Source of the DNA: Hydrogenophaga sp.
GTDB lineage: Bacteria > Pseudomonadota > Gammaproteobacteria > Burkholderiales > Burkholderiaceae_C
Length of the DNA stretch: 64,000 nucleotides
Assembly (NCBI GenBank): GCA_011391595.1
Contig: JAABQG010000013.1
Span: forward strand, 1-64,000
Direction: 5' to 3'
Made by a program: the position numbers and the translations under genes. Shown here piece after piece: positions 5,113 through 56,692 of the stretch. The notes under the pieces are model-generated. The model was not told the origin of the DNA, ran no database searches, and worked only from the letters and a program-made list of their open reading frames with translations. The number at the start of each line of letters is the position of its first letter. Within the stretch, counting starts at the first letter, position 1.

Positions 5113-5955
5113 TCAATGTCCGTGCGCCAGCCCGCTGACCAGTGTCACCAGTCCGATGCCCGCACCCAGCCAGGCAATCTGCGCCACGGTTTCGCGGGCG
5201 GACAGGCGTTTTTGCAGTTGAGGAATCAGATCGGCCAGCGCCACGTAGATGAAGCTGCTGCTGGCCACGGCCAGGAAGTACGGCAGGTAGTCGTGCAGGC
5301 GGTCCACCAGGAAATAGCCCACCGTGCCGCCCAGCGCGGTCACCGCGCCGGCCAGGGACACCTTGACCAACGCCATGCGCCGGTCGTTGTTGCCGCCGCG
5401 CAGCACCACCAGGTCGCCCATGTGGTGCGGCACCTCGTGGGCCAGCACGGCCAGTGAGGCGATCACGCCGAGGCGCAGGTCGGCCACGAACGCCGAGGCG
5501 ATCAGGATGCCGTCTCCGAAACAGTGCACGCTGTCACCGGTGAGCACCGCCCAGCTGCCGGGCTTGGGCACGTGGCTGTGCGCATGAACCTGGTCATGGC
5601 CATGGGACTGGGCATGAACGTGGCTCTGCGGGTGTTCATGGGCGTGGTGGTGCGGCGCGCCCGGCGCGGCCTCATGGTGATGCTCATGCCCGTGATGCCA
5701 GAGCTCGGCCTTGTCGAGCAGGAAGAAGAAGACCAGGCCGATCAGCAGCGTGAGGAACAGGTCGTACGCACCGGCCTGGCTCTCGAATGCCTCGGGCAGC
5801 AGGTGCAGGAAGGCGGTGGCCAGCAGCGCGCCGGCAGCCATGCTCAGCATGTGCTGCGTGTAGCGGGCCAGCATGCCGAAGCTCAAGGCTGCGGCAATCC
5901 ACACGCTGCCAATGCCGGCGGCCAGGGTTCCGATCCAGATTGATATCAATAACAT
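5113..5955 (-). CDS. ZIP-family divalent metal transporter
   Basis: 280-residue inner-membrane protein of the ZIP family, which imports zinc and related divalent metals. About eight hydrophobic segments are visible. The metal path is marked by HCFGDG (TM4) and HEVPHHMGD (TM5), the family's HNxxDG/HExPHExGD positions. Between TM3 and TM4 is a very His-rich cytoplasmic loop (about residues 85-130, many HxH pairs), a typical metal buffer or sensor. The closest well-known relatives are bacterial ZupT and GufA-like proteins; the cation is not determined. Single gene, separated from the upstream dehydrogenase operon by a terminator. Confidence 0.88.
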   Translation of the reverse strand: MLLISIWIGTLAAGIGSVWIAAALSFGMLARYTQHMLSMAAGALLATAFLHLLPEAFESQAGAYDLFLTLLIGLVFFFLLDKAELWHHGHEHHHEAAPGAPHHHAHEHPQSHVHAQSHGHDQVHAHSHVPKPGSWAVLTGDSVHCFGDGILIASAFVADLRLGVIASLAVLAHEVPHHMGDLVVLRGGNNDRRMALVKVSLAGAVTALGGTVGYFLVDRLHDYLPYFLAVASSSFIYVALADLIPQLQKRLSARETVAQIAWLGAGIGLVTLVSGLAHGH

Positions 5956-39915: not shown

Positions 39916-40831
39916 TCCGGATCGGCACTTTTTCGCATAGACCGGTATCCACGCGGCTGGTTGCCAGAAGGCGATGACGTTAGCAGATCGCGTCAGAAAT
40001 TCTGCAAACTGACCCAATAGGCAATTGCCGCGATGAAAGCGCTCGCAGGAATGGTCAAGACCCATGCCCAGACGATGTTGCCGGCCACCCCCCAGCGCAC
40101 CGCACTGGCACGACGGACCGACCCCACTCCGACGATGGCGCCTGTAATGGTATGGGTCGTCGACACTGGAACGCCAAGCCCCGTCGCAAGAAACAGCGTC
40201 AGTGCGCCACCGGTTTCGGCACAGAATCCTCCCACGGGCTTGAGTTTGGTGATCTTCTGGCCCATGGTCTTGACGATGCGCCAACCGCCGAACATGGTCC
40301 CTGCGCCAATGGCTGCGTAGCAGCTGACAATGACCCAGGTCGGTGGCGCCTTGTCTGCTGCCGCCGAGTAACCCGTTGCAATCAAAAGCATCCAGATGAT
40401 GCCAATAGTTTTCTGCGCATCGTTCCCGCCATGACCCAGGCTGTAAGCCCCCGCGGAGACCAACTGAAGACGTCGAAACCACTTGTCGACGCGAGACGGT
40501 CGGCTGCGACGGAATATCCAAGCCACGATCACCATCATCGTCGAGCCGAGCAGAAAACCGAGCAGGGGCGACACAAAGATGAATGCGACAGTCTTCAAAA
40601 TTCCGGCGGAGAGGAGCGCGCCGGCGCCGGCTTTTGCGATCACCGCCCCCACAATGCCGCCAATCAGCGCATGCGACGAACTGCTCGGAATCCCGTAGTA
40701 CCAGGTCAGGACATTCCAGGCAATGGCGCCCAGCAGCGCTCCGAAAACAACATGGGTATCCACCACGCCGGGTTGGACGATACCCTTGCCCACCGTGGCC
40801 GCGACGCTAAGATGAAAAACAAAGATCGCAA

Positions 40832-40858
40832 TGAATCGCCCCGGGAATTGAGGAGGCT
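40832..40858 (+). repeat. IS left inverted repeat
   Basis: Begins TGAATCGCCCCGGGAATTG and ends GGAGGCT. Pairs with the right repeat at 42123-42149. Confidence 0.9.
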
Positions 40859-40881
40859 CATTTCTCTGAGAGGATTGAGCA

Positions 40882-41205
40882 ATGACAAAGGCAAACAAGT
40901 TTTCACCCGAGGTACGCGCACGCGCTGTTCGCATGGTTCAGGAGCACCGAGGGGAGTACCCATCGTTGTGGGCGGCCATCGAATCCATCGCGCCCAAGAT
41001 TGGCTGCGTGCCGCAGACCCTCAACGTATGGGTCAAGCGTCACCAGATCGACACGGGTGCCCGGGAGGGCATCACCACATCCGAGCTGCAGCGCCTGAAG
41101 GAACTCGAACGCGAGAACAAGGAGCTGCGCAAGGCCAATGAGATCCTCAAGTTGGCCAGTGCTTTTTTTGCCCAGGCGGAGCTCGACCGCCGTCTGAAGT
41201 CCTGA
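40882..41205 (+). CDS. IS3-family transposase OrfA
   Basis: 107 residues. N-terminal helix-turn-helix ([40 protein letters not shown]) binds the element ends. A leucine-zipper-like coiled coil follows ([20 protein letters not shown]). The frame ends 41205, but at the T7 tract (about 41163-41169) a -1 slip would fuse it to OrfB to make the OrfAB transposase. Confidence 0.93.
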
Positions 41206-41258: not shown

Positions 41259-42110
41259 GTGCTGCAGATCGCCCCGTCAGGCTACTGGCGCCACGCTGCC
41301 CATCAACGCAATCCCCAGCTGCGCTGCGCCCGTGCCCAACGTGACGAGACGCTGATTGCTGACATCGAGCGCATCTGGCAAGACAACAAGCGTGTCTACG
41401 GTGCAGACAAGGTCTGGAAGCAGATGAACCGGGAAGGGGTTGGCATTGCCCGTTGCACGGTGGAGCGTCTGATGAAACGCCTGGGGCTGCAGGGCGCGCG
41501 CCGCGGCAAGGTGGTGCGCACCACGATCCGCGACCTGAAGGCACCCTGTCCGCTGGACCGGGTCAATCGCCAGTTCAAGGCGGATCGGCCCAACCAGCTC
41601 TGGGTATCGGATTTCACCTATGTCTCGACCTGGCAAGGCTGGCTGTACGTGGCCTTTGTGATCGACGTGTATGCCCGGCGCATCGTGGGCTGGCGGGTGA
41701 GCAACTCCATGCACACGGACTTCGTTCTGGATGCCCTGGAGCAGGCGCTTTATGCCCGGCAACCCGAGCGCAATGGCGCACTGACCCACCATTCAGATCG
41801 CGGCTCGCAGTACGTGTCCATTCGCTACAGCGAGCGGCTGGCCGAAGCGGGCATCGAACCTTCAGTGGGCAGCAAGGGCGACAGTTATGACAATGCCTTG
41901 GCGGAGACGATCAACGGCCTGTACAAAGCGGAGGTGATTCACCGCCGGTCCTGGCCAACCCGTGAATCAGTGGAACTGGCAACCCTGGAATGGGTGTCCT
42001 GGTTTAACCATCACAGGCTGCTCGGACCCATCGGATATGTCCCGCCGGCAGAAGCTGAGGCAAACTACTACAGGCAACTCGCCGGTCAAGCCACCATGGT
42101 GGTGGCCTGA
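41259..42110 (+). CDS. IS3-family transposase OrfB (DDE catalytic part)
   Basis: Integrase-core domain with all three acidic residues: Asp in WVSDFTYVSTW, Asp in HHSDRGSQYVS and Glu in SYDNALAETINGLYKAE. It begins with the HTH_21-type region DIERIWQDNKRVYGADKVWK. The listed GTG start at 41259 is only the first start in this frame; functional protein is expected as an OrfA-OrfB fusion by -1 frameshifting, the open frame reaching back into OrfA. Confidence 0.93.
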   Translation: MLQIAPSGYWRHAAHQRNPQLRCARAQRDETLIADIERIWQDNKRVYGADKVWKQMNREGVGIARCTVERLMKRLGLQGARRGKVVRTTIRDLKAPCPLDRVNRQFKADRPNQLWVSDFTYVSTWQGWLYVAFVIDVYARRIVGWRVSNSMHTDFVLDALEQALYARQPERNGALTHHSDRGSQYVSIRYSERLAEAGIEPSVGSKGDSYDNALAETINGLYKAEVIHRRSWPTRESVELATLEWVSWFNHHRLLGPIGYVPPAEAEANYYRQLAGQATMVVA

Positions 42111-54132: not shown

Positions 54133-54371
54133 TCGCGCCTGGTTGATCCGGGCAGCCAGCGAACCGGTTGAACCCCGCCGGGCTTGGCCGCGGGCGGGTC
54201 ATCACAGCCGCCACAGGTGTTGCACGCGCCGCAGCTGCGTTTTTCACCCAGCGCCGGATGAACCCGCCCCAGGCGACGCCGCAGGTCCGCCGGCAGCCAG
54301 TACCATAGGGCGTAGAGAGCTGCGGCCAGCACGATCAAACCCACGGTCCACTGCTGTGCCATTTCAGCCAC
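54120..54371 (-). CDS. Cys-rich single-span protein downstream of feoB
   Basis: 83 residues. Residues about 9-27 (VGLIVLAAALYALWYWLP) form one transmembrane helix; after a basic segment comes EKRSCGACNTCGGCDD, four Cys in CxxCxxCGGC spacing, then a polar tail. Such peptides often follow feoB (FeoB-associated Cys-rich membrane proteins) and may bind iron or an Fe-S cluster, taking the place of FeoC. It overlaps the feoB end by 8 bp. Confidence 0.75.
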   Translation of the reverse strand: MAEMAQQWTVGLIVLAAALYALWYWLPADLRRRLGRVHPALGEKRSCGACNTCGGCDDPPAAKPGGVQPVRWLPGSTRRDHPD

Positions 54372-55665
54372 CTCCCCACATCAGAGCCAGACGGTAGGTG
54401 ATGAAGCTGGCGCCATACGCCAGCGCAAACAGGTAGCCGGCCATGATCAGTGGATATTTCCAGCCATTGGTTTCGCGCCGCACGGCCACCAGCGTCGAGA
54501 CGCACTGCGGTGCAAACACATACCAGGCCAGCAGCGAAAGCGCCGTCGCGAGCGACCAGCTCTGCCCGATCAGCACGCCCAGCTGCGAGGCCACGTCGGT
54601 GCCCGTCGCCGACAGCGCATAGACCGTGCCTAGCGCGCCCACCGCCACCTCGCGCGCCGCCATGCCCGGCACCAGCGCAATGGCGATCTGCCAGTTGAAG
54701 CCGATCGGCGCAAAGACGACCTCCAGGCCGCGCCCGATCTGACCCGCCAGGCTGTACTGGATCGCCGGCCCGGTCGCACCAACCGGCGGCCCCGGAAATG
54801 TCGAAAGAAACCACAGCAGCACCATCAACGCCAGAATGATGCCGCCAACCCGCTTGAGGAAAATGACCGCGCGCTCATACAGCCCCAGCGCCAGATTGCG
54901 CGGGCTCGGCCAGCGGTACGAAGGCAGTTCCATCAACAGCGGCGTGACCCGGGTATCGCTGCGCAGGCGCATGAAGGCGGCAGCCACCGCCATCGCACCC
55001 AGAATCCCGCCCAGGTAAAGACCGAACAGCACCAGCCCCTGCAGATTGAACAGCCCCCCGACCGTGCGCACAGGGATGAAAGCGCCGATCAGCAAGGCGT
55101 ACACCGGAAGCCGGGCCGAGCAGGTCATCAGTGGTGCGATCATGATCGTGACCAGGCGGTCACGCCAGTGGCTGATGGTCCGGGTGGCCATCACCCCGGG
55201 AATGGCGCAGGCAAAACTGGACAGCAATGGAATGAACGAACGCCCCGACAGCCCGACCGTGCCCATGACCCGGTCCAGCAGGAAGGCGGCGCGCGGCAGA
55301 TAGCCCGAGTCCTCCAGCGCAATGATGAATAAGAAAAGAATCAGGATCTGGGGCAGGAACACCAGCACACCGCCGGTGCCGGCCAATATGCCGTCCACCA
55401 GCAGGCTTTGCAGCATGCCTGGAGGCAGGCTGGACCGGACGATATTGCCCAGGGCGTCCACGCCCGCCTTGATCCACTCCATGGGCACTGTGGCCAGACT
55501 GAATACCGCCTGAAACATCAGGAATAGCGTCACGGCCAGCAACAGAATGCCCCACAGCGGGTGCAGCACCACACGGTCGACCGCGTCGTCCGTGTGCAGA
55601 CTGTCGTCGGGCTCATTGACTGCCAGTGCCAGAATGCGCCGCACCTCCTGTTGGGTCGCGATCAC
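54364..55665 (-). pseudogene. feoB: FeoB membrane domain fragment, after in-frame amber codon
   Basis: 433 codons encoding the permease half of FeoB: SSFACAIPGVMATRTI and MTCSARLPVYALLIGAFIPV (the two Cys-containing gate helices), LYLGGILGAMAVAAAFM, and AREVAVGALGTVYALSA. It is in the same frame as the GTPase part, separated only by TAG at 55666-55668. Separate translation would need GTG 55665, which lacks a clear ribosome-binding site. The fragment begins IATQQEVRRILALAV, normally the end of the GTPase-side helical region, so this is probably a single nonsense mutation in a normal gene of about 634 codons. Confidence 0.85.
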
Positions 55666-56268
55666 CTACGCCACATCCGACGCATGCCAGGGTGCCGGCG
55701 ACACCACTGCGCCGCGAGGGGTCGCAGCCGCTGCAGTGTCCACCTGATTAAGGTAGGCCAGCAATTCGTGCGCGCCATCATGTCGAACGCCCACCGTCTC
55801 CAGCACCGGCAGGCCGAGTTCCGCCGAAAGCAGGCCCCGGTTGATCACGATGCCTTCCCGCATCGCCATGTCGCTCATATTGAGCGTCAACACCATCGGC
55901 AGGCCCAGCGCGCGCGCCTCCAGCACCAGGCGCAAGTTCAGTTTGAGATTGGTCGCATCAACCACGCAAACCAGCAGGTCAGGCAGCGGCTCATGGGCGC
56001 GCCTGCCGGTCACGACGTCACGGGTCACCGCTTCGTCCGCACTCAGTGCATTGAGACTGTATGCGCCGGGCAGGTCCAATACTTGAACGCGACGCCCAGA
56101 AGCCGTATCCAAGTGCCCCTCTTTGCGCTCCACCGTCACCCCCGCGTAGTTGGCGACCTTCTGGCGGCTGCCCGTAAGCAGGTTAAACAGCGCTGTCTTG
56201 CCACAGTTTGGATTGCCCAACAATGCAATTCGCAGGGGCGGTACAAGCGGCGCTGGCGCGTGACCCAT
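55666..56268 (-). pseudogene. feoB: FeoB GTPase domain fragment, truncated by amber codon
   Basis: 200 residues from ATG 56268, which overlaps the feoA stop. G1 ALLGNPNCGKTALFN, switch region NYAGVTVERKEG, G3 VLDLPGAYSLNALS and G4 TLNMSDMAM are intact, so this half could still bind GTP. It ends WHASDVA and then TAG. CAG (Gln) is one transition away and would give DVAQVIATQQEV. Ferrous-iron transport would be lost unless the stop is suppressed, the halves assemble, or the base is a sequencing error. Confidence 0.85.
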
Positions 56269-56579
56269 CACGCCGCCTTCGCATCGGGTTCGATTGGCGT
56301 GACCCGCACCAATGCCGCCTCATGACCGCGCAGGGCAAAGGTTGTGTGCCCGACTCGCACCGCAATCGGGTCATGCCCGGGGAAGCCTCTGGCGATCACA
56401 CGAACCTGCTCGCCTGGAAGAAAGCCGATTTCAAGCAATCGCAGCACCAGTTCCCGTTCATCCAGACACGCCGAATTCATCAGGCGGACTACCCGGGCAT
56501 CAATGTGGTGCGGCAATTCGTCGAGCCCGATATCGCTCTGACGGTGAAGATCCGCGAAACTGTCGGAATCGGACATCAT
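56268..56579 (-). CDS. feoA: Ferrous iron transport protein A
   Basis: 103 residues. SH3-like FeoA fold: ELVLRLLEIGFLPGEQVRVI, FPGHDPIAVRVGHTTFALRG and HEAALVRVTPIE. It helps FeoB, probably by contacting its cytoplasmic domain. The N-terminal 40 residues are longer than usual. A Fur box lies about 10-30 bp upstream. Stop overlaps the feoB start by one base. Confidence 0.9.
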   Translation of the reverse strand: MMSDSDSFADLHRQSDIGLDELPHHIDARVVRLMNSACLDERELVLRLLEIGFLPGEQVRVIARGFPGHDPIAVRVGHTTFALRGHEAALVRVTPIEPDAKAA

Positions 56580-56588
56580 GCTTGCATC

Positions 56589-56609
56589 AAATGATAATCG
56601 TTCTCATTT
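56589..56609 (-). promoter_or_regulatory. Fur box upstream of feoA
   Basis: AAATGATAATCGTTCTCATT, a near match to the 19 bp GATAATGATAATCATTATC consensus. It lies directly before feoA and between feoA and the divergent kyn operon. Iron-replete Fur would be expected to repress feoAB. Confidence 0.85.
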
Positions 56610-56692
56610 TACCATCCTTCGATTTCAGACTATTTTTTGCTTGTTGGAAATAACCGACACCGGAGATTCACAGGGCCGCTAAGTTCCATTGC

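Follow-up and report, generated by a model that had tools for sequence, protein, structure and literature searches.

The feoB gene of this Hydrogenophaga sp. is interrupted by an in-frame amber codon between the part that encodes the GTPase (G) domain and the part that encodes the membrane domain. The codon (TAG, minus strand, positions 55666–55668) is codon 202 of feoB and was located from the list of open reading frames (ORFs), the strand sequence and a read-through translation of the window, by which we mean the whole 64,000-nucleotide stretch of DNA that was analyzed. We regard the finding as an ordinary one, most likely a nonsense mutation in an iron importer that the cell can do without. 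To the fuller reading, that the mutation is recent, that the feo operon in which it lies is dispensable and that Feo is inactive or nearly so, we assign a probability of roughly 0.6. The nonsense mutation would have arisen recently in the linker, a weakly conserved stretch that joins the GTPase domain to the membrane domain, and translation would normally end once the G domain has been made. As a result, the transporter that couples GTP to Fe2+ import would be absent, or scarce through leak or reinitiation, and the Feo system would be inactive or nearly so in a genus where it is probably dispensable.

Structure of the interrupted feoB gene

Both feoB ORFs lie on the minus strand. The 5' ORF (55666–56271, 201 aa) starts at GTG 56271 or ATG 56268 and encodes the G domain (PF02421, E = 6.5e-51). 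The 3' ORF (54364–55665, 433 aa) encodes a short linker/helical stretch followed by the membrane domain (PF07670, 1.6e-38; PF07664, 3.9e-12; TIGR00437, 3e-87). It is opened by a GTG (55665–55663) that directly abuts the stop, the minus-strand letters at this point being GCG TAG GTG ATC GCG ACC CAA CAG. The ORFs share one frame and, when joined, yield a FeoB of 635 residues with its sole stop at residue 202; translation across all 635 residues revealed neither a second stop nor a frameshift. The FeoB_N match falls in the first half, and Gate (PF07670, in two stretches) and FeoB_C (PF07664) fall in the second. A reading made earlier from the sequence alone had proposed that an amber codon parts the GTPase from the membrane half and that normal FeoB sequence resumes after it, and both proposals are borne out by the shared frame and by the domain matches downstream of the stop. 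Because a 635-codon homologous frame is broken only once, the break is not chance ORF noise. The interrupted feoB is a genuine feature of the sequence as given.

The likeness to FeoB (TIGR00437; PF02421 with PF07670 and PF07664) extends to the presence of both halves, their order, their frame and their place in a feoA-feoB-Cys-rich cluster. The gene differs in that a stop, placed after the G domain and ahead of the membrane domain, breaks the single continuous frame that joins them in FeoB. Taken alone, the halves score 167.5 and 293.7 bits against TIGR00437, each below the cut-off of 315.65. The alignment with solved structures of the N-terminal part of FeoB covers residues 13–194 at most, and the stop falls just past this stretch, ahead of the membrane part. 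By our estimate, the zone in which a split would do least harm spans about residues 180–207 of 635, some 4% of the length. The sequence-only reading also held that both parts keep all key motifs. This is correct at the level of the protein families, but the protein carries substitutions at three near-invariant positions (D144N, W259L and L317I).

Comparison with relatives and signs of constraint

Sixty relatives were searched first for FeoB, and the comparison was carried to 142 loci, each represented by its best tblastn match; some genes were fetched twice, and 80 are named GTDB records. Among these loci the stop is private: an internal stop occurs in one of the 142 loci, our own (which is included in the count), and the orthologues at the other 141 lack it, as they would for a nonsense pseudogene. 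Eight GTPase matches (L001–L008, the first being our own G domain) were kept outside the counts. One short match (L034, 4–430) and identical proteins were dropped beforehand, which left 130 distinct sequences, our own included. Identity thresholds for relatives were 62% for conservation, 65% for unique residues, 70% for codon columns and Shine-Dalgarno (SD) comparisons, and 74% for pN/pS.

Wider searches gave the same picture: among the matches listed for the 60 relatives, the family and the order, our genome alone has an internal stop or a membrane half in a separate frame. In the family, 164 of 299 genomes match FeoB at E ≤ 1e-60, and the stops among the matches listed are our own TAG and two TGAs at C-terminal ends. 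A search of the order with the membrane half matched 94 of 399 genomes at E ≤ 1e-100. Among the matches listed, the 433-aa membrane frame is unique to our genome, and the two other frames shorter than 500 aa (G1003 and G767) are each no more than 51 bases away from the end of a contig. In-frame stops in four relatives (G254 and G128 in the family search, G570 and G111 in the order search) were set aside, each being one TGA that is the natural C-terminal stop. A separately translated gene pair in relatives was the case that the sequence-only reading had named as contrary to its own; no two-gene feoB was seen among the matches listed for the 299 family and 399 order genomes. A plasmid search returned 50 records, all 60–80% identical. 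Across the phylum, 193 of 396 genomes match FeoB_C, and the shortest frame among the matches listed has 512 aa (G332).

In that genome, this feoB locus (L193, 911–3180) consists of two overlapping ORFs of 315 and 469 aa in different frames, and another feoB frame, 715 aa long, lies elsewhere. We rejected the locus as a precedent for a conserved split of FeoB on account of the frameshift-like break between the frames and the presence of the second, 715-aa feoB. The locus is another broken or miscalled feoB.

The stop occupies a variable position in the linker. In the 78 relatives whose identity is 70% or higher, the column holds Asp in 34, Gln in 20, Glu in 11, Arg in 9, Ala in 2, and Gly and Thr in one each. 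The sequence-only reading pointed to a single transition from CAG to TAG; with so mixed a column, the ancestral codon need not have been CAG. The next column is far more uniform, with Val in 77 of the 78 and Ile in one, and its codon is GTG in 60.

Both halves of feoB look constrained by pN/pS (own membrane part against L183: 0.117 and 0.432), and our pN and pS values against the nearest relatives resemble those among the relatives themselves. The three near-invariant changes placed our sequence at 110 of 122 in a first ranking, and before control 92% and 95% of relatives had no more unique residues than our own sequence; both results looked suggestive. With near neighbors removed, violations were at least as many as ours in 31 of 121 controls and unique residues in 24 of 121; in a stricter control, both figures were 17 of 68. 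The changes were therefore rejected as evidence of long decay, being ordinary once nearest-neighbor distance is controlled. Divergence like that of relatives, together with unexceptional changes at conserved sites, suggests that the break is recent, as does the survival of the rest of the gene, of feoA, of the Cys-rich ORF and of the Fur-like site. Taken alone, the sequence fits both a recent break and halves that continue to be used.

The feo cluster and its absence from a congener

On the minus strand the order is feoA (56579–56268), feoB (56271–54364) and a small Cys-rich ORF (54371–54120). The feoA gene is uninterrupted (PF04023, E = 5.1e-13). The Cys-rich ORF, which has an alternative ATG at 54362, lies 3' of feoB in a FeoC-like position; a similar sequence is present in 35 of 87 loci, and neither Pfam nor NCBIfam gave a match at E = 0.001. 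It contains one hydrophobic stretch and a Cys cluster, CGACNTCGGC. A survey of Feo evolution (PMC8749426) discusses fusions, the loss of genes and, in betaproteobacteria, a Cys-rich element resembling FeoC, which fits this ORF. Ahead of feoA is a palindrome resembling a Fur box (56587–56611), which agrees with a Fur-box consensus at 14 of 19 positions, once per strand, and has the top score within the 64-kb window.

The cluster is flanked on one side by argD, argF and a small gene resembling ykgJ and on the other by kynB, kynU and kynA. Here argF and kynB were identified by NCBIfam matches; the other four are presumed from resemblance. Elsewhere in the window, a 329-aa ORF (40152–41141) with no NCBIfam match at E = 1e-20 precedes, in the same frame, an ORF for an IS3 family transposase (41259–42110, plus strand; NF033516).

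One other genome of the genus was compared (G001, 78% complete); its best FeoB match has E = 2.2e-4, and none reaches E ≤ 1e-60. In this congener argD, argF, ykgJ, kynB, kynU and kynA are contiguous, and the gap between ykgJ and kynB is about 90 bases, compared with about 2.5 kb, feo included, in the window. There is no feo at this syntenic junction (L192, ~5426–5514, against window positions 54133–56692), where the best Fur-box-like score is 9 of 19. In 10 of 87 loci, from nine distinct genomes, feo sits between argF and kynB (L066, L069/L185, L071, L086, L091, L098, L106, L184 and L186). Since nine distinct genomes carry feo there, the site looks ancestral, and the congener most likely lost the operon, as judged from gene order. 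The remaining 77 loci, G001 included, do not show feo flanked by argF on one side and kynB on the other, some because the contig or flank ends and others because the order differs (e.g., L089), and this counts against the main reading. Because the congener genome is incomplete, feo could also lie elsewhere in it.

The absence of the operon from the same site in the only congener compared suggests that Feo is dispensable in the genus. We infer that feo was deleted there rather than hidden in the missing sequence, that the amber base of our genome is real and that its Feo function is lost. Neither genome has a match to an Nramp or FTR1 importer, which suggests that losing FeoB might be costly and counts against the nonsense reading. 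Plug-domain receptors, the one further iron-related feature looked for, gave two matches in our genome and three in G001.

Alternative explanations and known systems

The sequence-only reading had left three outcomes side by side: inactivation of feoB, suppression of the stop and assembly of two polypeptides. Inactivation emerges as the best supported: the stop is private among the loci compared, the operon is missing from this site in the congener, and TAG serves as a normal stop in the window. The main rival, which we nevertheless hold to be unlikely, is one that leaves feoB intact and ascribes the TAG to an error of sequencing or consensus or to a mixture of strains. The assembly is a draft (126 contigs, 93.76% complete), and a lone stop in a gene and operon that are otherwise uninterrupted, with divergence that looks constrained, is what such an error would leave; a random error, however, would be unlikely to place a stop in one given gene. 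Five neighboring same-frame ORF pairs in the window gave no demonstrated case of a single broken gene, a check that is weak, as both members could be named in only two of the five and 5 of the 10 ORFs had no match at E = 1e-20. Suppression or read-through of the amber codon to give full-length FeoB would suit two intact halves in one frame, but it lost ground when the tRNA genes were searched for an amber suppressor, and we consider it very improbable. None of the 36 tRNA genes found in the genome has the anticodon CTA; the set is incomplete, with none typed as Trp or Ile, so the assembly may lack a suppressor that the organism has. TAG also ends 16 of 58 window ORFs of at least 100 aa (chosen greedily, some of them spurious), among them pcnB and folK, so efficient suppression would lengthen many proteins. 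Recoding of TAG was judged unlikely on the same two grounds, its regular use as a stop in the window and the lack of CTA among the 36 tRNAs.

A further explanation, improbable in our view, is that feoB now consists of two cistrons, with ribosomes that end at the TAG reinitiating at the GTG next to it and the G domain acting together with a separately made membrane domain. The GTG is preceded by an SD-like stretch (55669–55685, minus strand) with a predicted duplex of −7.4 kcal/mol with the anti-SD sequence. This ranks it within the top 4.5% when 382 internal in-frame ATG/GTG codons are compared and second of 61 at the homologous site (our own included; only relatives that have GTG or ATG in this column are counted). 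The strength of the duplex and the position of the GTG make some reinitiation believable. The break also lies in the variable linker, and both halves look constrained. No sign of relaxed selection outlasted the control, which counts against the nonsense reading, as do the abutting GTG with its SD-like sequence, stronger than most, and the position of the stop where a split would do least harm. Set against the two-cistron explanation is the fact that the GTG is simply the Val codon of most closer relatives. Moreover, neither the family search nor the order search showed a two-gene form among the matches listed, and the sole other two-ORF feoB that we met, that of G332, has its ORFs in different frames alongside a second feoB frame. 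We found no natural precedent in the literature, as covered by titles and the opening parts of abstracts, and the phrase "split FeoB" was absent from the papers searched. A freshly split FeoB, in which one base change in the linker would have produced a two-polypeptide system that works by termination-reinitiation and still imports Fe2+, is distinctly doubtful on the sequence available. If the halves do still work, the GTPase and channel of FeoB would need no covalent link, and the locus could serve to test the coupling between GTP hydrolysis and transport.

Nonsense pseudogenes are an ordinary kind of feature in bacteria. The interrupted feoB resembles them in its single stop without a counterpart in the orthologues seen, its otherwise intact frame and the absence of the operon from the corresponding site in the congener, and nothing about it is clearly different; here the stop happens to sit in a linker and to abut a GTG. 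If it is a nonsense allele, it would represent one more case in which an iron importer is lost, the other species of the genus that was compared having no operon at the site, and it would matter for annotation and for predictions of iron physiology.

Helicobacter pylori offers another rearranged Feo system, in which feoA and feoB are about 116 kb apart (PMC10353542); unlike the case here, the passages on H. pylori in that article describe no FeoB in two pieces. The word "split" does not occur in the main text of the Feo survey (PMC8749426). Interrupted feoB genes, as distinct from a naturally split FeoB, may be reported for Francisella, Bacillus cereus and Arcobacter.
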